DNA of 32,003 nucleotides from Chloroflexota bacterium (GTDB lineage Bacteria > Chloroflexota > Dehalococcoidia > Lucifugimonadales > Lucifugimonadaceae): positions 1-32,003 of the forward strand of contig JABIGL010000146.1 in assembly GCA_018650185.1 (NCBI GenBank). The letters run 5' to 3'. Under the pieces are notes generated by a model. That model had not been told where the DNA came from. It did not search any database and worked only from the letters and a program-made list of their open reading frames with translations. The translations under genes and the position numbers were made by a program. Shown in pieces: positions 21-31,365 of this stretch (the stretch's first letter is position 1; each line of letters starts with the position of its first letter).

Positions 21-1313
21 TTGGCAGACGTAAGACCCTTCCGTGGAGTTCGATACAACACCCGGTCAGCGGGCGATCTTTCTACGCTCCTGTGTCCGCC
101 TTTTGACGTTATTTCTGAGGCGGAACGAGAACGGCTTTACGCCGGATCTCCGTTCAACGTCATCAGACTTGAGTGGGGCAGGGACGAGCCGGGCGACACG
201 CCGGGTAACGACTGGTATGCACGTGCAGCAAAGCTACAGGCAGAGTGGCTGGCCTCCGGTGTCCTGGAGGAAGATGACAGCGCTTCGTTCTACGTGATCG
301 AAGAAACCTTCTCTTTCGCCAGTAACGATTTCGTCCGCAAGGGATTGATTTCGGCGGTGCGGCTTGAGGAGTTCGACAAAGGCGTCGTCCTCCCTCATGA
401 GTTCACTCGACCCGGGCCTAAGGTAGACCGGCTGGAGTTGATGCGATCCGCAAAGGCCAACTACAGCCCGCTTATGGTGCTCTACCGTGACTCAAATTCC
501 GCCGTCGCAAGCGTTATGCAGCGTGCGATGGCTGGGGATGCCATTGCAGATGCCGCACCGGAAGGTCTTCCCTCCATGCGGCTCTGGCGGATCACAGACG
601 CCGCAGATATCGAGAACGTGACATCGGCACTCGCCGACACACAGCTATACCTCGCAGACGGCCACCACCGTTACGAGACGGCCATCACTTACCGGGACGA
701 GGTGCGTGAAACACGCACCGTTGGCACAGACGATGCTGTGAATTTCCGGTTGATGACTCTCATCTCGGTGGACGACCCGGGTCTGCTGCTGCTGGGCTAT
801 CACCGGCAGTTGGAGGACGCGTCGGACGATGAGCTGGCACGGTTCCGGGAGTACGTTACTGGAGCGTTCGATCTAGAAGACAAAGGTCCGATAGACCCGT
901 CATCGGCTGCTGCATTTGAACAGTCATTGAACGACGTGCCACAGGACAAGGTCGCGATCGGGTTTGCGGGTGTCGAACCGGGGAGACTCCAGATCGGCGT
1001 GATGCGAAATCCCGCTGCGGCAACAGATGAGCTAGCAGCTTCGGATTACACGCGCCTCCACGACGAGGTCGTACGGTCCACGTTCAGCCTGGAACGCGAG
1101 CAGGTCGTTGTGGCCTTCGAACACAACGCCGCGGCGGTCTTGCGAAGTGTTTCGGGCGGTGCTGCACAGGTCGGGTTCGTCATGCGTGCGGTGCCAATAG
1201 AGCCGTTCGAGAACATAGTGAAGCGTGGTCAACGATTGCCGTCCAAGTCCACGTACTTCCATCCCAAGCTGCACACCGGGGCAGTGATCCAGAACCTTGA
1301 GGGTGGCCTGTAG
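21..1313 (+). CDS. DUF1015 family protein
   Basis: Protein of 430 residues, full length for the DUF1015 family, whose biochemical role is not established. The family signature is visible: a PPFDVI block near residue 26, the HEFTRPGPKVDRL stretch around 126-138, NYSPLMVLY near 147, and the ADGHHRYE motif at 212-219, which is the most diagnostic part. The TTG start is chosen because AAAGGAGG lies 9 bases upstream (positions 4-11). There is no signal peptide or membrane segment, so it should be cytoplasmic. The gene upstream is outside the window, so operon context is unknown. Family assignment is secure; function is not inferred. Confidence 0.9.
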   Translation: MADVRPFRGVRYNTRSAGDLSTLLCPPFDVISEAERERLYAGSPFNVIRLEWGRDEPGDTPGNDWYARAAKLQAEWLASGVLEEDDSASFYVIEETFSFASNDFVRKGLISAVRLEEFDKGVVLPHEFTRPGPKVDRLELMRSAKANYSPLMVLYRDSNSAVASVMQRAMAGDAIADAAPEGLPSMRLWRITDAADIENVTSALADTQLYLADGHHRYETAITYRDEVRETRTVGTDDAVNFRLMTLISVDDPGLLLLGYHRQLEDASDDELARFREYVTGAFDLEDKGPIDPSSAAAFEQSLNDVPQDKVAIGFAGVEPGRLQIGVMRNPAAATDELAASDYTRLHDEVVRSTFSLEREQVVVAFEHNAAAVLRSVSGGAAQVGFVMRAVPIEPFENIVKRGQRLPSKSTYFHPKLHTGAVIQNLEGGL

Positions 1314-1463: not shown

Positions 1464-1727
1464 ATGGATGCAGCGACCAGCAACAACGAATTTCGCCCCT
1501 TCCCGAGTCCTCATTCCCTGGGACGCTTCCGGGTCACCATCGTTTTTCTGATGGTGAGTATCGGCGCGCTTCTTCTTGCCTCCATCGCAGTTGACCGAGT
1601 GGCTAAGAATATCGGCGAAGATGCGACCGTCCGCGCTGGCACACAGATCGCCGCCCTTCTGGCGCGTGGAGTAGGCACGCAACGCATCAACAGGCCTGGT
1701 GGCGTAATTTTCGGCTCGGCTTTTTAG
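1464..1727 (+). CDS. short membrane ORF, possible truncated sensor protein
   Basis: An 87-residue ORF from an ATG at 1464. It has a basic N-terminal stretch, one strong membrane segment (about residues 20-38, FLMVSIGALLLASIAVD) and a following segment resembling the start of an extracytoplasmic sensor helix (ENIG/EDATVRAGTQIAALLARG-like). This layout is typical of the first 70 residues of histidine kinases or adenylate cyclases, but the ORF then ends abruptly. Its stop overlaps by four bases the 3' end of the convergent selenoprotein gene. No Shine-Dalgarno sequence is evident. It may be a genuine small membrane protein or the stump of a larger sensor gene cut by rearrangement; I cannot decide between them. 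Confidence 0.4.
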   Translation: MDAATSNNEFRPFPSPHSLGRFRVTIVFLMVSIGALLLASIAVDRVAKNIGEDATVRAGTQIAALLARGVGTQRINRPGGVIFGSAF

Positions 1728-3130
1728 CCGCCGATCTGATCTAGCTTGTCGATGACGGTGTCGGCCGACACCTGGTGTTGATAATTATCGCCCAGCGACT
1801 GCCAGACCAGCTTTCCGTCTCTGTCGATGACGTAAACGGATGCGTCAGCCAGGTTGGTCCCGAAGTTGCCAAATCGTTCCCATTCTTTTGGCACCTCTTC
1901 GCTTACATCGTAAGCGAGCGGGAACGCGATCCCCACGGAGTCGATCGATCCGGATGCCGCTCTAAGATCCTGCGTCGTGACGGCGATAACTTCTGCGTCT
2001 CGTGCGGCGATCTCACCGTAGTTATTCTGCAACTCAACGAGTTGCCTGCGGCAGTAGGTTCACCACCAGGCACGGAAGAAGACGAATACAACGTTCTTCT
2101 CCCCCACGTGCTCGCTGAGCGAGATGGATTCGCCACGCGCAGTGGGCAGGTCGAAGTCAGGGACCGGTCCGCCCACCACGGGCGGCCCGGACACTACGGG
2201 TACGGGAACGAGACTGGGGGGAGGAGCGGGTGTGTCGTCCGTCTTTATCTCCTCAATAATCTCCAACTCTATGGTTGGAGGAGAGTCAGATGTGGTGTCG
2301 GAACCGTCACCTACGGAACTCTCTGGGGCCACTACCGCCGTGACGGCCTCAGATGTGGCTGTAGCCCGTACGGTGACTGCGTCTTCCATCCCGTCCACGT
2401 CGTTTGGACTGTCGCCGTCGTCCCCTGGCGGCAACATTGCACGGTCCATCCCGGCCAACGAAGCGAGCACTTCCAGTACCGAGTCCGTTGTTGGCCGCTC
2501 TGAGATGTTCGTGCCTATCAGAGCCGATTCAAAAGTACCGTCTGTCCTGATTATGAATGTAGCGGGTGCAGACACACCGTCACCCAGCAGGTTGAACAAA
2601 CCCCACTCGGCGGTTACGGCGTGATCGGTGTCGTAAAGCACCGGGAACTCAAGGCCGAACTCGTCACGCATCGAAACGGCGTCCTGGACATCGTCCACAC
2701 TTACGACAACAACTTCACCGCCGAGTTGTTTTATCTCTTCGTAATGGTCCTGCAGCTCAACGAGCTGGTTACGGCAGATACCTCAGAAATAGCCCCGGTA
2801 GAACACGAGCACTGTGTTGCCCTGCGCGTATGCATCAGCCAGGTTGAGGGTGCCGCCGTTCGCCCGTGGGAGCACGAGATCAGGGGCGAACACAAGTTCG
2901 TTCACAGATGTCGGATTCGGCGTGGGCGAAGTGCCAGAGGACGAGCCATCGCCGATGGTTGTAGCAGTGGGCTGTGAAGCAGGCGCGTTGGTCGCTTGTG
3001 CGGCGACATCAGTGTCTAAATCGTCGCCACTGCCGCAGGCAACTAGAAACGCTGCGCCCACGATGACCGCGATAAATGAGAACCGACGCGTCGCGTTTCG
3101 CAAGAGAACGGTACGTTTGTCCGGCCCCAT
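1724..3130 (-). CDS. tandem peroxiredoxin-like selenoprotein (two Sec), lipoprotein
   Basis: One frame of 469 codons interrupted only by TGA at 2783-2785 (residue 116) and 2060-2062 (residue 357); the stop is TAA. Order: signal peptide with lipobox LVAC (Cys32), a Ser/Thr/Pro linker, thioredoxin-fold domain 1 (about 78-226), a Pro/acidic linker (227-322), domain 2 (323-468). At the active site, where relatives read FYRG-x-x-CxxC, this protein has VFYRGYF-U-GIC and VFFRAWW-U-TYC, with resolving Cys119 and Cys360. Sequence continues homologous to AhpC/TSA-like proteins past each TGA (QLVELQ in both). Both TGAs are followed by matching hairpins. AAAGGCGG lies 6 bases before the ATG. The inferred role is an extracytoplasmic thiol/peroxide redox protein using Sec-Cys pairs. 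TGA is a normal stop elsewhere here (for example ribF), and Trp is TGG. Confidence 0.88.
2027..2062 (-). promoter_or_regulatory. putative bacterial SECIS element 2 (with Sec TGA)
   Basis: TGA at 2062-2060 is followed by 15 bases and then CAACTC-GTT-GAGTTG (2044-2030). Geometry is identical to element 1: a 6-bp stem, a GTT loop, and 21 bases from TGA to loop. The second stem pair is A-T here and G-C in element 1. Both changes are synonymous (CAA/CAG Gln and TTG/CTG Leu), so the pairing, not only the protein, seems conserved. The lower CTG/CAG helix (2054-2052 with 2029-2027) is also present. Confidence 0.78.
2746..2785 (-). promoter_or_regulatory. putative bacterial SECIS element 1 (with Sec TGA)
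   Basis: TGA at 2785-2783 is followed by 15 bases and then the perfect hairpin CAGCTC-GTT-GAGCTG (2767-2753). The apical loop begins 21 bases after the TGA and starts with G, as bacterial SECIS models require (loop about 16-37 bases downstream, a G in the first two loop positions). A lower helix is possible: CTG (2777-2775) with CAG (2752-2750), and GGT (2782-2780) with ACC (2748-2746). The element lies inside the coding region, as bacterial SECIS elements do. Confidence 0.78.
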
Positions 3131-3205: not shown

Positions 3206-4297
3206 TTAACTACGAAGGTCGGCCAGGGTCTTCTCTACCGCATCGATGCTTTCATCGATGTGCTCCGGCAGAACCCATCCCATGTGTCCTATACGGATGA
3301 TCTGGCCGGCCAGTTTCTCCTGACCGCCGCCGAGTTCAACGTTGTAAACCTCTCGGGCGTGCGAAACGAGGGCCTTGCCGTCGATATCGGCAGGAACGCT
3401 GATGGCGGTTACCGTGTCGGACGCAATCGATTCTTCCGGGAATATCTCCAGGCCGATCCGTTTTGCGCCATCGCGCGTCTGCTGCGCCCGTGCTGCGTGC
3501 CGGATGAGGACCTCTTCGATGCCCTCGGTGACGATCGCCTGCAGGGAGTGGTCCAGCGCGTAGATCGTGGACAGCGCCGGTGTAAACGGGGGCTGGCCCA
3601 TCTGGAGGAATTTTTCGTACTGATCGATGTCGAAGTAGTACTTCGGAATGGTTGAGGTCTCGTGCGCCTTCCACGCCTGGTCGCTCATGGCGACCATTGC
3701 GATCCCCGGAGGGGCGACCCATGACTTCTGGGAAGCCGTGCCGACTACGTCCAGGCCCCAGTCGTCCATCGGAAGAGGAACACCGGCGGCGCTGCTGACG
3801 GCGTCGACCAGAACAAGAGCGTCGGACTCGTCATGAACCGCCCGTGCGATGGCTTCGATCGGGTTCATCACGCCGGTCGAACTCTCGTTGTGCGTCACAA
3901 CCACGGCGGCGCAGTCCGGCATGGATCGGATGGTCTCACGGACCTTTTCCGGGTCAGCGGCCGTACCCCACTCGAATTCGATGCGTGTGACTTCGGCCCC
4001 GTACGCCTCTGCGATGTCGCCAAATCGATTGCCAAAAGATCCGATACTGACAGAAAGTACCCGGTCTCCGGGGGACAGCGTGTTCACTACTGCCGCCTCC
4101 ATGGATCCCGTGCCGGATGCGGTTAGGAAGTATGCGCGGCCCTGCGTGCCCAGCACCTTTTTGAAGTTCGTCGTCATCCTGTCGATGATCTCTGCGAACT
4201 CAGGTCCGCGGTGGTTGATCATCTGTCGGCCGGTTATTTCAAGTACTTCTTCAGGTAGTGGGACCGGGCCGGGGATTCGCAGGTTCAAGTCGGACAT
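3206..4297 (-). CDS. class V aminotransferase (serine/alanine-glyoxylate type)
   Basis: PLP-dependent fold-type I aminotransferase of 363 residues, most like serine-glyoxylate or alanine-glyoxylate aminotransferases acting in glyoxylate and photorespiratory-type metabolism. Visible motifs: N-terminal NLRIPGPVPLP, NHRGPEF, the phosphate-binding ASGTGSMEAA near residue 61, VDAVSSAAG with the cofactor Asp (about 165), and TASQKSW with the PLP lysine (about 191). A start seven codons upstream (4318) is possible, but the chosen ATG has GGGAAG just before it and matches where relatives begin (MSDLNLRIPGP). It precedes the selenoprotein gene by 75 bases with no obvious terminator between, so co-transcription is possible. 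Substrate specificity cannot be read from sequence alone. Confidence 0.9.
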   Translation of the reverse strand: MSDLNLRIPGPVPLPEEVLEITGRQMINHRGPEFAEIIDRMTTNFKKVLGTQGRAYFLTASGTGSMEAAVVNTLSPGDRVLSVSIGSFGNRFGDIAEAYGAEVTRIEFEWGTAADPEKVRETIRSMPDCAAVVVTHNESSTGVMNPIEAIARAVHDESDALVLVDAVSSAAGVPLPMDDWGLDVVGTASQKSWVAPPGIAMVAMSDQAWKAHETSTIPKYYFDIDQYEKFLQMGQPPFTPALSTIYALDHSLQAIVTEGIEEVLIRHAARAQQTRDGAKRIGLEIFPEESIASDTVTAISVPADIDGKALVSHAREVYNVELGGGQEKLAGQIIRIGHMGWVLPEHIDESIDAVEKTLADLRS

Positions 4298-4499
4298 TTC
4301 TTCCCGTCGATTTGCCAATGAAATTGTTGCTGACGTTTGGACGCGCCACGGCGCGACATCTGTGGACTGCGTCGCGGGGTCACGCCGTAGAACAAGTTTA
4401 GCGATACTCAGGCCAGATTGGCGTGAAATAGATGTGAAGCGAATTCAGTTTGCGTCGAATCGGGTATCGGACTACGACATTGGGCCGACAACGTGACCC

Positions 4500-6921: not shown

Positions 6922-7971
6922 TTATGCGGGAAGTGGCTGCGCACGGAGCGGTGTGCGATTGGCCACGCCAATGCCTGTAACGCTACGAACACCCTCCATC
7001 AGTTTGCCGAAATTCTCAAACGTTACCGACTGCGGACCGTCAGACATCGCGTGATCCGGGTTTGGGTGGACCTCAATCAGAAGTCCGTCAGCGCCCGCCG
7101 CTACCGCGGCAACACTCATCGGTATCACGAGGTGCCAGCGTCCCGTTCCATGACTTGGGTCTGCAACCACGGGTAGGTGGCTCAACCGGTGGATCACCGG
7201 AATTGCCGCTATATCCAGTGTGTTTCGGGTGTAAGTCTCAAAGCTCCGGATACCGCGTTCACACAGGATCACGTTCCGGTTGCCGCCCGCAAGAATGTAT
7301 TCCGCCGCGTTCAGCCAGTCGTCGTAAGAGTTGGCCATGCCGCGCTTCAACAGGACGGGGGTGTTTAACTCGCCGACGGCGTCCAGCAGCATGAAGTTCT
7401 GGGCGTTCCGCGTTCCGATCTGGAGGATGTCGGAGTATTTGGCGACAAGTTCGACATCTTTTTCAGACATCAGTTCTGTGATGACCGGCAATCCGGTTTC
7501 ATCGCTGGCGGCCCGGAGAAGCTTGAGGCCTTCCTCCTTCAACCCACGGAATGAGTATGGAGTCGTACGCGGCTTGAAAGCACCACCTCGGAGCACGGTG
7601 GCCCCGGCCGCCTTCACGGCGTTTGCGGTTGCCATCAACTGCTCTTCAGACTCGACAGAGCAGGGTCCGGCCATAACGACCGGGTCGTTGCTGCCGCCAA
7701 TTTTGACGCCCTTGACGTTGACCACAGTGTCGGTCGGTCGGAACTCTCTGCTGCCGAGCTTGTACGACCGCGTGATACGCACCACGGCCTCTACTCCAGG
7801 TAGTGCCTCAAGGCCGGAGCGAAGATCTTCATTGATGTTGTCCCCGACAACGCCGATCACGGTGCGCTCAACGCCCCGAATCAGTTCAGTGTTGTTCCCT
7901 GTTTCTGCGACGTTAGCGACCACCGACTGGATCTGCTCTTCCGTCGCCAGGCGTTCCATTGTGACGATCAT
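6922..7971 (-). CDS. aroF: DAHP synthase, type I-beta
   Basis: 3-deoxy-D-arabino-heptulosonate 7-phosphate synthase, 349 residues, first step of the shikimate pathway (phosphoenolpyruvate plus erythrose 4-phosphate). It is of the I-beta class found in Bacillus and Thermotoga. An N-terminal ferredoxin-like/ACT-type regulatory domain (about 1-70) precedes the barrel, with AGPCSVES near 101-108, [14 protein letters not shown] near 128-141, the metal/substrate blocks LLKRGMANS and DPSHGTGR, and [13 protein letters not shown] near the C-terminus. The N-terminal domain is a likely site of feedback control by an aromatic amino acid. A second DAHP synthase of another class lies immediately upstream (aroG). 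Confidence 0.95.
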
Positions 7972-8032: not shown

Positions 8033-9094
8033 TCAGGCGCTCGCGCCGACCTTTCCGGAAAGCACACCATGGGCCTCAAGGAGGAGTTCCTCGGTCGTGC
8101 CCCAGTCGATGCAGGCGTCGGTGATGGAGACTCCGTACTCCAGACCTTCGAGCCCGTTGACTAGCTTCTGCGCACCGGGGTTGAGGTGGCTCTCGAGCAT
8201 GATCCCGGCCACGTTTCCGTTGCCGCGGGCCCGCTGCTCGATAACGTCACGGAAGACGATCGGCTGTCGGTTGTGATCCTTGTTGGAGTTGGCGTGCGAG
8301 CAGTCGACTACCAGCCGCTGTGAAACACCACCAGTACCGAGCAACTTGGTCGCCCTCGCAACCGACTCGGCGTCGTAGTTCGGGCCGTCGGCGCCGCCCC
8401 TGAGTATCAGGTGCCCTCCGACGTTACCCGATGTGTGAACGACACTGGCGCGTCCTTCGCCGTCGACCCCTAAAAATGCGTGCGGGGATTCGGCTGCGAC
8501 CATGGCGTCCACGGCGATCTGGAGAGTTCCGCCGGTTCCGTTCTTGAAACCGATGGGCATGCTCAGACCGCTTGCCATCTGGCGGTGCGTCTGGCTCTCG
8601 GTGGTGCGAGCGCCGATAGCGCCCCAGGACACCAGGTCTGCCAGGTACTGCGGTGTGAAAGGGTCAAGAAACTCAGTCCCGGCCGGTAGTCCAAGCTCGG
8701 CGACTTGCAGTAGGAACTTGCGTCCCCGTCGTAGGCCCGTGGCCACATCGAACGTGCCGTTCAGATTCGGGTCGTTAATAAGACCCTTCCAGCCCACGGT
8801 GGTGCGTGGCTTTTCGAAGTAGACCCGCATCACGACGAGAATCTGGTCGCTCACCTTATTGGCGAGTTCCGCCAGGTTCTGGGCGTATTCAAGCCCGGCC
8901 TTCTCGTCGTGGATAGAGCAGGGCCCGACCAGCATCGCCATCCGGTCGTCTTTCCCGGCGAGGATGTCCTGTAACTCTTGCCGGGACTTTGCGACCAGCG
9001 CAGTCGCTTCCGGAGTGATCGGCAGCTCGGTGATGTAATCGTCGGGAGCGCCAAGTCTGTCCATACGTTCCACGTTTACGTTGGAGGTAGTCAT
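8033..9094 (-). CDS. aroG: DAHP synthase, type I-alpha (AroG-like)
   Basis: Second DAHP synthase, 353 residues, of the E. coli AroF/AroG/AroH class. Visible: LVGPCSIHD at 55-63, RVYFEKPRTTVGWKGLINDP from residue 90, PAGTEFLDPFTPQY, GARTTESQTHRQMASG, GFKNGT, DCSHANS and MLESHLNPG. The N-terminal 45 residues correspond to the extension that carries the feedback site in E. coli enzymes. It performs the same reaction as its downstream neighbour aroF, 61 bases away, so the pair is probably differently regulated. A 370-base leader region lies upstream. The ATG at 9094 has only a weak ribosome site (AAAGAG about 12 bases before). Confidence 0.95.
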   Translation of the reverse strand: MTTSNVNVERMDRLGAPDDYITELPITPEATALVAKSRQELQDILAGKDDRMAMLVGPCSIHDEKAGLEYAQNLAELANKVSDQILVVMRVYFEKPRTTVGWKGLINDPNLNGTFDVATGLRRGRKFLLQVAELGLPAGTEFLDPFTPQYLADLVSWGAIGARTTESQTHRQMASGLSMPIGFKNGTGGTLQIAVDAMVAAESPHAFLGVDGEGRASVVHTSGNVGGHLILRGGADGPNYDAESVARATKLLGTGGVSQRLVVDCSHANSNKDHNRQPIVFRDVIEQRARGNGNVAGIMLESHLNPGAQKLVNGLEGLEYGVSITDACIDWGTTEELLLEAHGVLSGKVGASA

Positions 9095-9464: not shown

Positions 9465-9833
9465 TTAGGTCAGTTTGGACTGCTTCGTACGCAAGTTTAC
9501 CGCGTCTCGCAGATAGATGTGTTTTACGTCCTGAGGTGCGACGTCTGTGTTCCACGTCAAGAGCACTCGGATGCAGCGCGGGAAGCCGTGGGGGACAGCC
9601 ATCTCGTGGCTGTTCATGAGTGGCACATGGACCCAGCCCAACATGCGGGCGGCCACTGCCGGAAATTCCGAGACGAGATCGGTCGTCGTCGTGAACTGTG
9701 CTGAAGCCAGGTCATCTTTGTCGATCCCGTTGGCGGCCACGATTTCACTGATGAGCTCGGTGGTCGCATCAAGAATCGCTTCCCGCGTGTCTTCGGTCAC
9801 GGTTGTTGCGCCGCGTACGCCTCTGACTGCCAT
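9465..9833 (-). CDS. aroH: chorismate mutase, AroH class
   Basis: Monofunctional chorismate mutase of the Bacillus AroH fold, 122 residues, converting chorismate to prephenate for Phe and Tyr synthesis. Recognisable by VRGVRGATTV at the N-terminus (Arg7), the HEM block with Glu77, CIRV with Arg89, and HIYLRDAV with Tyr107, which correspond to the known active-site residues. GGGAG sits 4 bases before the ATG. It lies between trpA and the DAHP synthases on the same strand, so the series covers both the entrance and two branches of aromatic amino-acid synthesis. Confidence 0.95.
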   Translation of the reverse strand: MAVRGVRGATTVTEDTREAILDATTELISEIVAANGIDKDDLASAQFTTTTDLVSEFPAVAARMLGWVHVPLMNSHEMAVPHGFPRCIRVLLTWNTDVAPQDVKHIYLRDAVNLRTKQSKLT

Positions 9834-29230: not shown

Positions 29231-30223
29231 ATGCCAGAGAACGTGAACCGCCAGTGGGTGCTCAAGTCACGCCCGGACGGAATGCCGACCGAGACCGATT
29301 TCGATCTGGCTGAGAGTCCGATTCCAGGTCCTGAGTTTGGGCAGGTTCTGGTGAAGAGCCTTTGGAACTCACTAGACCCTTACATGCGCGGCAGAATTTC
29401 CTCGTCGCCTATCGGTGGGGTGATCGAATCTGAAGCCGTGGGCCGGGTGATGGAGAGCAAGCTGGACGGCTTCAAGCCCGGAGACATCGTCCGTGGGCGT
29501 ATTGGATGGCAGGAATACGGCTTGTTGGATGTGACTTCGGCATATGCCGTGAACCCGGATTACGGGCCTATCTCGACCTCGGTCGGCGTACTGGGGATGC
29601 CCGGCCTCACCGCCTATTTCGGGTTGCTGGACGTCTGTGAACCAAAGCCCGGAGATACCGTCGTAGTCTCATCCGCATCAGGCGCGGTGGGAGCCGTGGT
29701 CGGCCAGATCGCTAAGATCGGCGGTTGCCGCGTGGTGGCGATTGCCGGTTCAGACGAGAAGGTTGCTTACTGCGTTGACGAACTCGGATTCGACGTCGGC
29801 ATCAATTACAAGACTGAGGACGTTAGCGAGGCGCTGGGTAAAGCAGCCCCGAATGGCGTTGATTGCTACTTCGATAATGTCGGTGGACCTATCACGGAAG
29901 CGGTGATGGAACACCTTGCCATGTACTCACGAACCGTGATCTGCGGTCGAATCTCCGAGTACAACGAGGGCGAGCCGTCGATGGGTCCACGAATCCTCCG
30001 GTACCTCCACAGTACCCGGAGTCGAATTCAGGGCTTCACCGTGAATCAGTACCCATCGCAGTTCGAGGACGGACGCGCCCAGCTCGCTCGCTGGGTCAAG
30101 AGCGGCGAAATCAAGTACCGGGAAGACATCGTAGAAGGGTTCGAGAACTCGCCAAAAGCCTTCATCGGACAACTCGGCGGCGCTAACTTCGGAAAGCTGC
30201 TCATCAAGATGTCCGACGAGTAA
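29231..30223 (+). CDS. CurA-like NADP-dependent MDR oxidoreductase (copy 1)
   Basis: 330-residue zinc-free medium-chain reductase of the leukotriene B4 dehydrogenase/curcumin reductase group, which uses NADPH to reduce the C=C bond of enones and 2-alkenals. Visible: LWNSLDPYMRGR, GMPGLTAYFGL, the nucleotide-binding SSASGAVGAVVGQIAKI, GSDEKV, INYKTEDV and the YFDNVGG block near 216. AGAGGCC precedes the ATG. It is followed after 128 bases by a close paralogue, forming a tandem pair. The natural substrate cannot be deduced. Confidence 0.93.
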   Translation: MPENVNRQWVLKSRPDGMPTETDFDLAESPIPGPEFGQVLVKSLWNSLDPYMRGRISSSPIGGVIESEAVGRVMESKLDGFKPGDIVRGRIGWQEYGLLDVTSAYAVNPDYGPISTSVGVLGMPGLTAYFGLLDVCEPKPGDTVVVSSASGAVGAVVGQIAKIGGCRVVAIAGSDEKVAYCVDELGFDVGINYKTEDVSEALGKAAPNGVDCYFDNVGGPITEAVMEHLAMYSRTVICGRISEYNEGEPSMGPRILRYLHSTRSRIQGFTVNQYPSQFEDGRAQLARWVKSGEIKYREDIVEGFENSPKAFIGQLGGANFGKLLIKMSDE

Positions 30224-30267
30224 GGTTTGTGAGCGAAAACACTGTAGGGACAGATAGCGATCCGCCC

Positions 30268-30291
30268 AGGGGTCGATACGAATCGACCCCT
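30268..30291. repeat. dispersed GATTCGTAT repeat, perfect hairpin copy
   Basis: AGGGGTCGAT-ACGA-ATCGACCCCT, a perfect 10-bp stem with a 4-base loop between the two paralogous reductase genes. It reads as GTAGGGGTCGATTCGTATCG on the minus strand, matching the copy at 29147. It has no T-run. Confidence 0.75.
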
Positions 30292-30351
30292 ACGATCTTG
30301 ATCCAAAGCTGCACTCAATCCGCACAACCCGAACCAACCAGAGGCCAACAA

Positions 30352-31365
30352 ATGCCAGAGAACGTAAACCGACAGTGGGTCCTCAAATCACGCCCCGACG
30401 GCATGCCAAAAGAGAGCGACCTGGAACTAATCGAGACACCGATCCCTGAGACGAGACACGGCGAACTCCTCGTCAAAAACCTGTGGATGTCGATCGACCC
30501 GTATATGCGCGGTCGCCTGAGGGATGGACCGTCTTACGCGGAACCGGTGCCGATAGGTGGAGTGCTGCAAGGTGAATCGGTCGGCCGCGTCGTGGAAAGC
30601 AAGCTGGAAGGCTTCAAATCCGGTGACATAGTCCGCGGACACATCGGCTGGCAGGAGTACGGCATCCTGGACGTGACCGGTGCGCACACCGTAGATACCT
30701 CGCTCGGCCCTATCTCCACCTCCGTCGGCGTTCTTGGTATGCCCGGCCTCACCGCCTACTTTGGCCTGCTTGAGGTCAACCGACCGCAACCCGGCGACAC
30801 CATCGTCGTGTCCGCAGCATCCGGGGCGGTAGGTGCGATCGTCGGACAGATAGCGAAGATCATGAGCTGCCGTGTGGTCGGCATCGCAGGATCCGACGAA
30901 AAGGTCTCCTACATCGTGGATGAACTCGGTTTTGATGCCGGCATCAACTACAAGACGCAGGACGTGGCGTCGGCCATAGAGGCCGCATGCCCGAACGGCG
31001 TCGACGGCTATTTCGACAACGTCGGTGGCGAGATCACGGAAGCCGTCATGCCCTACTTCAACCTGTACGCACGAATGGCGATCTGCGGGCGGATCTCCGA
31101 GTACAACGAAGACACTCCATCAATGGGTCCGCGCGTAATGCGCTTCGTCCACGCAAAGCAGGCGGTAGTCGAGGGTTTCCTCGTGTTCCGATGGGAGGAC
31201 CGCTATGAAGAAGGACGTGCAAGGCTGGCGCAGTGGGTCAAAAACGGCCAGATCAAGTATCTGGAGGATGTGGTCGAAGGCTTTGAGAACGCCCCGAAAG
31301 CCTTCATAGGCCAGCTGGGCGGAGCAAACTTCGGCAAGCTACTTATCAAAGTGTCGGACGAGTAG
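30352..31365 (+). CDS. CurA-like NADP-dependent MDR oxidoreductase (copy 2)
   Basis: 337 residues from the ATG at 30352, chosen because the first 15 residues are nearly the same as in copy 1 (MPENVNRQWVLKSRPDGMP) and both genes carry an AGAGGCC ribosome site. A longer frame to 30229 runs through the intergenic hairpin and is not credible. Motifs are as in copy 1: VSAASGAVGAIVGQIAKI, YFDNVGG, GMPGLTAYFGL. Differences cluster around residues 55-65, where copy 2 has an insertion near the substrate loop (GPSYAEPVPIGG), and in the C-terminal third, so the two may have different substrates. Confidence 0.93.
   Translation: MPENVNRQWVLKSRPDGMPKESDLELIETPIPETRHGELLVKNLWMSIDPYMRGRLRDGPSYAEPVPIGGVLQGESVGRVVESKLEGFKSGDIVRGHIGWQEYGILDVTGAHTVDTSLGPISTSVGVLGMPGLTAYFGLLEVNRPQPGDTIVVSAASGAVGAIVGQIAKIMSCRVVGIAGSDEKVSYIVDELGFDAGINYKTQDVASAIEAACPNGVDGYFDNVGGEITEAVMPYFNLYARMAICGRISEYNEDTPSMGPRVMRFVHAKQAVVEGFLVFRWEDRYEEGRARLAQWVKNGQIKYLEDVVEGFENAPKAFIGQLGGANFGKLLIKVSDE

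Follow-up and report, generated by a model that had tools for sequence, protein, structure and literature searches.

A likely two-selenocysteine tandem redoxin, predicted to be a lipoprotein, in a Chloroflexota bacterium

In the window, by which we mean the whole stretch of 32,003 nucleotides of Chloroflexota DNA that was analysed, the standard code splits a redoxin frame into ORFs of 115, 212 and 102 aa. The question raised by this locus is whether the two TGA codons responsible are stops, errors, or selenocysteine (Sec) codons within a single gene. Reading TGA as Sec opens the frame all the way from an ATG (3130) to a TAA (1724) and gives a protein of 468 aa:

1724..3130, minus strand: complete gene for a 468-aa tandem redoxin with two putative Sec codons, ATG at 3130 and TAA at 1724-1726, kept in 7 congeners
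2783..2785, minus strand: putative Sec codon 1, TGA, residue 116
2060..2062, minus strand: putative Sec codon 2, TGA, residue 357

The contexts of the two codons are FYRGYF-UGIC for U116 and FFRAWW-UTYC for U357. Translation of the frame upheld what the preliminary description had proposed, namely a gene at 1724-3130, three ORF pieces joined into a 468-residue protein by two TGA codons read as Sec, and the motifs UGIC and UTYC with TGA at residues 116 and 357; the strand (minus) was absent from it. A plus-strand reading of the locus was rejected, as it gives no sensible protein. With an in-frame UGA at a redox-active position and homology on both sides, the gene fulfils one of the criteria for a bacterial selenoprotein. 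A short membrane-like ORF, which appears truncated, lies at 1465-1727 on the plus strand and ends right at the stop of the redoxin gene.

The protein is composed of the following parts:

3038..3130, minus strand: predicted lipoprotein signal peptide, residues 1-31, ending in the lipobox LVA-C32 (by eye from the sequence, no predictor)
2450..2887, minus strand: domain 1 (D1), residues 82-227, AhpC/TSA fold, active site U116-G-I-C119, SAPATF-loop Pro kept
2189..2428, minus strand: low-complexity linker between D1 and D2, residues 235-314, pLDDT below 50
1730..2176, minus strand: domain 2 (D2), residues 319-467, AhpC/TSA fold, active site U357-T-Y-C360

Two stretches matched Pfam family PF00578 (AhpC-TSA), the whole protein reaching 3.9e-50 and 169.4 bits against a gathering score of 26. 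An AlphaFold model, built with Cys replacing Sec and of modest overall quality (pLDDT 63.7, mostly 80-93 in the domain cores), contains two Trx-fold units, in which residues 117 and 358 start the catalytic helices and each Sec position is at the helix N-cap. The nearest solved folds by structure comparison were ResA structures. Among PDB sequence matches a thiol peroxidase came best and ResA second; in the thiol peroxidase alignment it is C119, the second residue of the UxxC pair, that matches the VC of the Prx motif. Of the NCBIfam models ResA scores best, yet its 97 bits do not meet the 170-bit curated cut-off of NF002854; no Prx model reaches its cut-off, and neither does the TUGYCR (seleno)protein model NF053656 (31.4 bits, curated cut-off 100 bits). 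The criterion for peroxiredoxins proper, PxxxT/SxxC(U), is not met, UxxC following FYRG or FFRA without any PxxxTxxU.

D1 and D2 of the window protein are 32% identical. Among the proteins of the genus (hereafter g1, eight species including that of the window), the SAPATF-loop Pro is present in D1 of 7/8 species, and Ala is found there in D2 of 8/8. Residues 1-81 are poorly conserved and of low complexity, and the linker between the domains is much shorter in most congeners. The N-terminus is a hydrophobic segment ending in LVAC-G, judged to be a lipobox by eye only, and C32-G33 is invariant in 8/8 proteins. We predict from this lipobox that the redoxin is a lipoprotein; its lipidation and its location outside the membrane are inferred.

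The source genome (3.08 Mb, 94% complete, fragmented into 212 contigs) contains a tRNA-Sec with anticodon UCA (66.5 bits), selA (526 bits), a full-length selB (334 bits) and selD (356 bits), the last with its own in-frame TGA at its catalytic site. By gene content, the cell is equipped to make Sec. Other Sec genes of this genome include a WASWUGC ResA-like gene (L033), a SFTGGU (TGGU) peroxiredoxin (L035), a UPYC redoxin (L030) and the Sec-type selD (L023). TGA is also used as a stop, in 5 of the 27 window genes taken as real, ribF included.

The fused redoxin with TGA at both sites was found in all 7 congeneric genomes, that is in 8/8 g1 species. The arrangement lies far outside what chance would give. 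Congener proteins are 58-66% identical to that of the window, their frame is intact, and the active-site residues are invariant across the eight species. The end of the gene is covered in 6 of the 7 congener loci (that of G030 runs off its contig), and is a TGA stop in five of them and TAA in G031. No hairpin passing the energy cut was found at the terminal TGA of the orthologue in 5/5 congeners ending in TGA. Since TGA stands for Sec twice and for a stop once in a single message of these five congeners, a global code change is ruled out; since their terminal TGA is a true stop without hairpin, we conclude that UGA decoding depends on context.

The gene lies between two neighbours:

3206..4318, minus strand: upstream neighbour, AGXT-like aminotransferase, syntenic in g1, G008 and G003
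21..1313, plus strand: convergent downstream neighbour, DUF1015-like protein, syntenic

The order ribF, tyrS, aminotransferase, redoxin and convergent DUF1015 is common to the congeners, to G008 and to G003. Synteny in congeners was judged only as far as the examined stretches extend, and the DUF1015 gene was not found in the G032 stretch. The families of both neighbours were named from sequence only, as were those of two other gene groups of the window: adjacent DAHP-synthase-like genes (6922-7971 and 8033-9094, minus strand) beside a chorismate-mutase-like gene (9465-9833), and tandem paralogues of an NADP-dependent oxidoreductase (29231-30223 and 30229-31365, plus strand) with a five-base gap.

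Beyond the genus, every listed order-level relative with E≤1e-25 had at least one TGA within the match. In GTDB, the TGA form of the active-site DNA motif was recovered at more than 100 loci from many phyla, and no ORF with two such motifs was seen among the 113 GTDB loci read. A whole-protein search of GTDB via six sampled peptides gave no match, perhaps because the peptides are too little conserved between genera.

Downstream of each TGA, a SECIS-like hairpin can be drawn:

2753..2767, minus strand: hairpin 1, CAGCUC-GUU-GAGCUG, apical loop 21 nt past the UGA
2029..2045, minus strand: hairpin 2, GCAACUC-GUU-GAGUUGC, apical loop 21 nt past the UGA

The published bSECIS model requires a loop of 3-9 nt, an upper stem of 4-16 bp, a G in the first two loop positions, a spacing of 16-37 nt and an MFE of -7.5 or below (PMC13188914, Fig. 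2 legend). Both hairpins fit it (GUU loop, stems of 6 and 7 bp, spacing 21), with a caveat on energy at site 1. The upper stem reaches -7.7 kcal/mol at site 2; at site 1 it reaches -6.7 kcal/mol alone and -13.1 with the lower pairs, so that upper stem-loop 1 taken alone misses the -7.5 cut-off, which counts against the Sec reading unless the lower pairs are included. The D2 hairpins of G029 and G031 have no loop G and failed the relaxed SECIS test. Overall, 47 of 61 family sites passed this relaxed test, compared to 14% of background TGAs. Dinucleotide shuffles of single hairpins were uninformative (z only about -1 each).

The hairpin stem is formed by the codons of the QL.EL motif, and we could examine synonymous positions within it. 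Over 60 related Sec sites, the wobble base of the Gln codon and the first base of the Leu codon combine as G-C in 22 cases, A-U in 27, G-U in 11 and A-C in 0 (Fisher 1.4e-8). Kinship among the sequences inflates these counts; this is mitigated by a wider, GTDB-wide set of 56 sites from other loci, in which A-C was again found 0 times (4e-8). The codon of the second Leu is without exception TTG or CTG; in the rest of the same domains, these two account for 42% of the Leu codons. Synonymous shuffling gave a mean z of -1.62 in the hairpin, against +0.04 in control segments. As controls we used terminal TGAs, background TGAs and further segments from the same genes. Cys homologues were too rare to serve as a control, since 1 of 393 genomes of the class has the active-site DNA motif with TGY instead of TGA. 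The absence of A-C pairs and the shuffle z support the conclusion that the Gln and Leu codons of the hairpins covary synonymously, and that site-specific hairpins are under synonymous selection.

The locus takes other forms in relatives. At the same position genus g2 has three separate adjacent genes with one Sec domain each (UPYC, UGFC, UGIC), and G008, a single-contig genome, has one gene (L067:2746-4845, G008:C1) whose 700-aa product, also a predicted lipoprotein, contains a Sec in each of three domains (U126, U319 and U590; sites UGIC, UGFC and UGYC). The same hairpin recurs at all three sites. The second and third domains of the G008 protein are 77% identical. In another family of the order, G098 has a double-Sec tandem redoxin (L206, G098:C1:362000-368000) with UTYC at both sites and domains 68% identical; it is not syntenic, lacking this neighbourhood. 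Among further relatives, genus g7 (L077, L078, L079, L083) has a Cys-Sec fusion, with a Cys-type first domain (CEDC in L083) and UTFC or UTYC in the second, and genus g8 (L081, L082, L085, L086) has a Sec redoxin gene followed by a paralogous domain in which the active-site Cys/Sec is lost.

A maximum-likelihood tree of 96 domains sets the two apart: D1 clusters (98/94) with stand-alone genes from other families within a UG(I/V/T)C clade, and D2 belongs to a different group (94/95). Given these separate groups and the 32% identity, we conclude that D1 and D2 are old paralogues joined by fusion, and a recent internal duplication is rejected for the window gene. Such a duplication does fit G098 (68%) and, in G008, the second and third domains (77%). 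The G098 fusion, which is from another family and not syntenic, is an independent one. A single common fusion for g1 and G008 finds no support in the domain tree; it remains possible, not being excluded.

These results can be set against the remaining claims of the preliminary description. It would have been refuted by the lack of selB and selC in the source genome, and tRNA-Sec, selA, selB and selD are all there. Its argument that code reassignment is unlikely because TGA ends ribF held, five window genes in all stopping at TGA, and so did its view that two nonsense mutations or sequencing errors are improbable, both codons being conserved in eight species. It would also have been refuted by homologues with ordinary stops and the domains in separate genes: 8/8 species keep the fusion and both TGAs, and genus g2 does have separate genes, yet each of the three keeps its internal Sec TGA. 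The proposed count of Cys against TGA homologues showed the Cys form to be nearly absent nearby, at the 1 in 393 genomes given above. The ancient paralogy of the domains, the SECIS-like hairpins at both sites, the predicted lipoprotein and the triple-Sec relative were not part of it.

Several other explanations were considered. UGA could specify an ordinary amino acid, either by reassignment or by readthrough (giving Trp or Cys via a suppressor tRNA, for instance), and a frame open across TGA is what this predicts. Against it, TGA stops 5 of 27 window genes and this very gene in five congeners, the genome has a full Sec system with tRNA-Sec UCA, and the TGAs of the family are at the catalytic position and followed by site-specific hairpins under synonymous selection; we regard it as excluded for practical purposes. 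That the gene is a pseudogene, or that both codons stem from sequencing or assembly errors, could be argued for a genome fragmented into 212 contigs. This can hardly be maintained either, as both TGAs occur in eight species with 58-66% protein identity, an intact frame and an invariant active site, and as a triple-TGA homologue is found in a single-contig genome.

Alternatively, the TGAs may act as regulated stops and form a selenium-responsive switch: the main product would end at residue 115, and the cell would make the full-length protein with Sec only when selenium is plentiful. One can reason in its favour that with recodings in series the full-length yield is the product of two efficiencies, and that the N-terminal piece would be secreted as a lipoprotein stub. 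Residues 1-81 are however poorly conserved and of low complexity, so that a functional stub is improbable, and we consider this switch very doubtful. The last alternative concerns function. A peroxiredoxin-like Sec-peroxidase, rather than a disulfide oxidoreductase, is suggested by membership of PF00578 and by the thiol peroxidase as best PDB sequence match, with C119 on the VC of the Prx motif. Yet ResA gives the best structural matches and is also second by sequence, Sec lies three residues ahead of C119, where CxxC has its first residue, rather than where TxxC has its peroxidatic Cys, and among NCBIfam models ResA has the best score while no Prx model reaches its cut-off. A peroxidase is therefore unlikely.

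We thus favour decoding of both UGAs as Sec. The gene content of the genome, conservation and synonymous covariation make it very probable, but insertion as such is inferred, without proteomic or selenium evidence and from genomes that are probably MAGs. An extracytoplasmic thiol(selenol)-disulfide oxidoreductase is the likely function; it rests on fold and motif, and no redox partner was found. The reading as a whole, a true two-Sec selenoprotein with non-identical AhpC/TSA (ResA/TlpA-like) domains, predicted to be a lipoprotein and acting as a UxxC oxidoreductase, is likely too. According to this reading, each UGA would be recoded by the SelA/SelB/SelC/SelD of the cell under the guidance of the in-frame hairpin that follows it at 21 nt, and the protein would be tethered outside the membrane as a lipoprotein. 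In each domain, Sec would attack a disulfide or a peroxide, and the downstream Cys would resolve the selenenylsulfide. As D1 and D2 are ancient paralogues, encoded by separate adjacent genes in relatives, fusion of such neighbouring genes would have brought two complementary Sec active sites onto one tethered chain. The loop Pro that characterises Trx/TlpA enzymes has been retained by D1 and lost by D2, from which we infer a division of labour rather than a simple doubling. Two successive recodings are required for each full-length molecule, so the fusion can pay only if insertion is efficient.

A bolder reading is that an uncultured Chloroflexota lineage repeatedly strings Sec redoxin genes into one chain, with two or three Sec domains and at least two independent fusions, and that this comes with intramolecular selenol relays outside the membrane, electrons moving between functionally unlike Sec sites (with and without the loop Pro), and with processive, high-efficiency Sec insertion. 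Taken as one joint claim, we lean slightly against it.

A 2026 catalogue of prokaryotic selenoproteins lists a Prx-like UxxC/UxxU family (PF00578) with 1-2 Sec, together with several other multi-Sec families (PMC13188914). We take the "2 Sec" of this Prx-like family to be the UxxU motif. Prx-like thiol:disulfide oxidoreductase selenoproteins (PMC13188914, Table 1; PMC1088965; PMC2398784) resemble the redoxin in fold family and UxxC motif, and they too come from environmental bacteria and were predicted from in-frame UGA and SECIS. What sets the window protein and its relatives apart is the fusion of two (or three) entire UxxC domains, every one of them with a SECIS-like hairpin to itself, in a predicted lipoprotein. 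Single-domain FYRGxWUPxCxxQL redoxins, present in many phyla of GTDB, share the active-site signature with Sec and a similar downstream hairpin, but two motifs per ORF were found in none of their inspected loci. ResA/TlpA oxidoreductases, the best match by structure and among the best by sequence, are likewise extracytoplasmic with the catalytic motif at a helix N-cap. ResA itself is a single-domain Cys protein, whereas the window protein is a tandem with Sec and falls below the NCBIfam ResA cut-off; we suppose that it works like ResA, membership not having been shown. Several Sec per bacterial chain also occur in arsenite methyltransferase/AhpD (3 Sec, NF041537) and in the NF047649 double selenoprotein (PMC13188914), but these have other domains, and repeated UxxC redoxin domains are described for none in the table of that paper.

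The Global Ocean Sampling study reported Sec Trx-fold domains fused to other domains, as well as neighbouring selenoprotein genes (PMC2398784); no Sec-Sec redoxin fusion is described in its relevant passages, supplements excluded. The preliminary description had taken Sec-containing UxxC Prx-like proteins to be known singly, a double Sec fusion of this kind not being known to it. In the open-access literature searched, we came across no previous account of a bacterial protein with UxxC Sec domains in tandem, nor any report for SAR202 or Chloroflexota; this does not prove novelty.

The catalogued bacterial selenoproteins include few with several Sec, and none was found in which UxxC redoxin domains are repeated and independently recoded. 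Such genes are fragmented by standard gene callers and are therefore probably missing from annotation. The hairpins of one gene match and differ between its two sites by a synonymous compensatory change, and so they offer an unusually clean, in-gene view of SECIS constraint. Since orthologous loci carry either separate Sec genes or two- or three-Sec fusions, and relatives have mixed Cys-Sec fusions, they form a natural test series, which bears on how bacteria handle several UGA recodings per message and on why Sec stays at each site.
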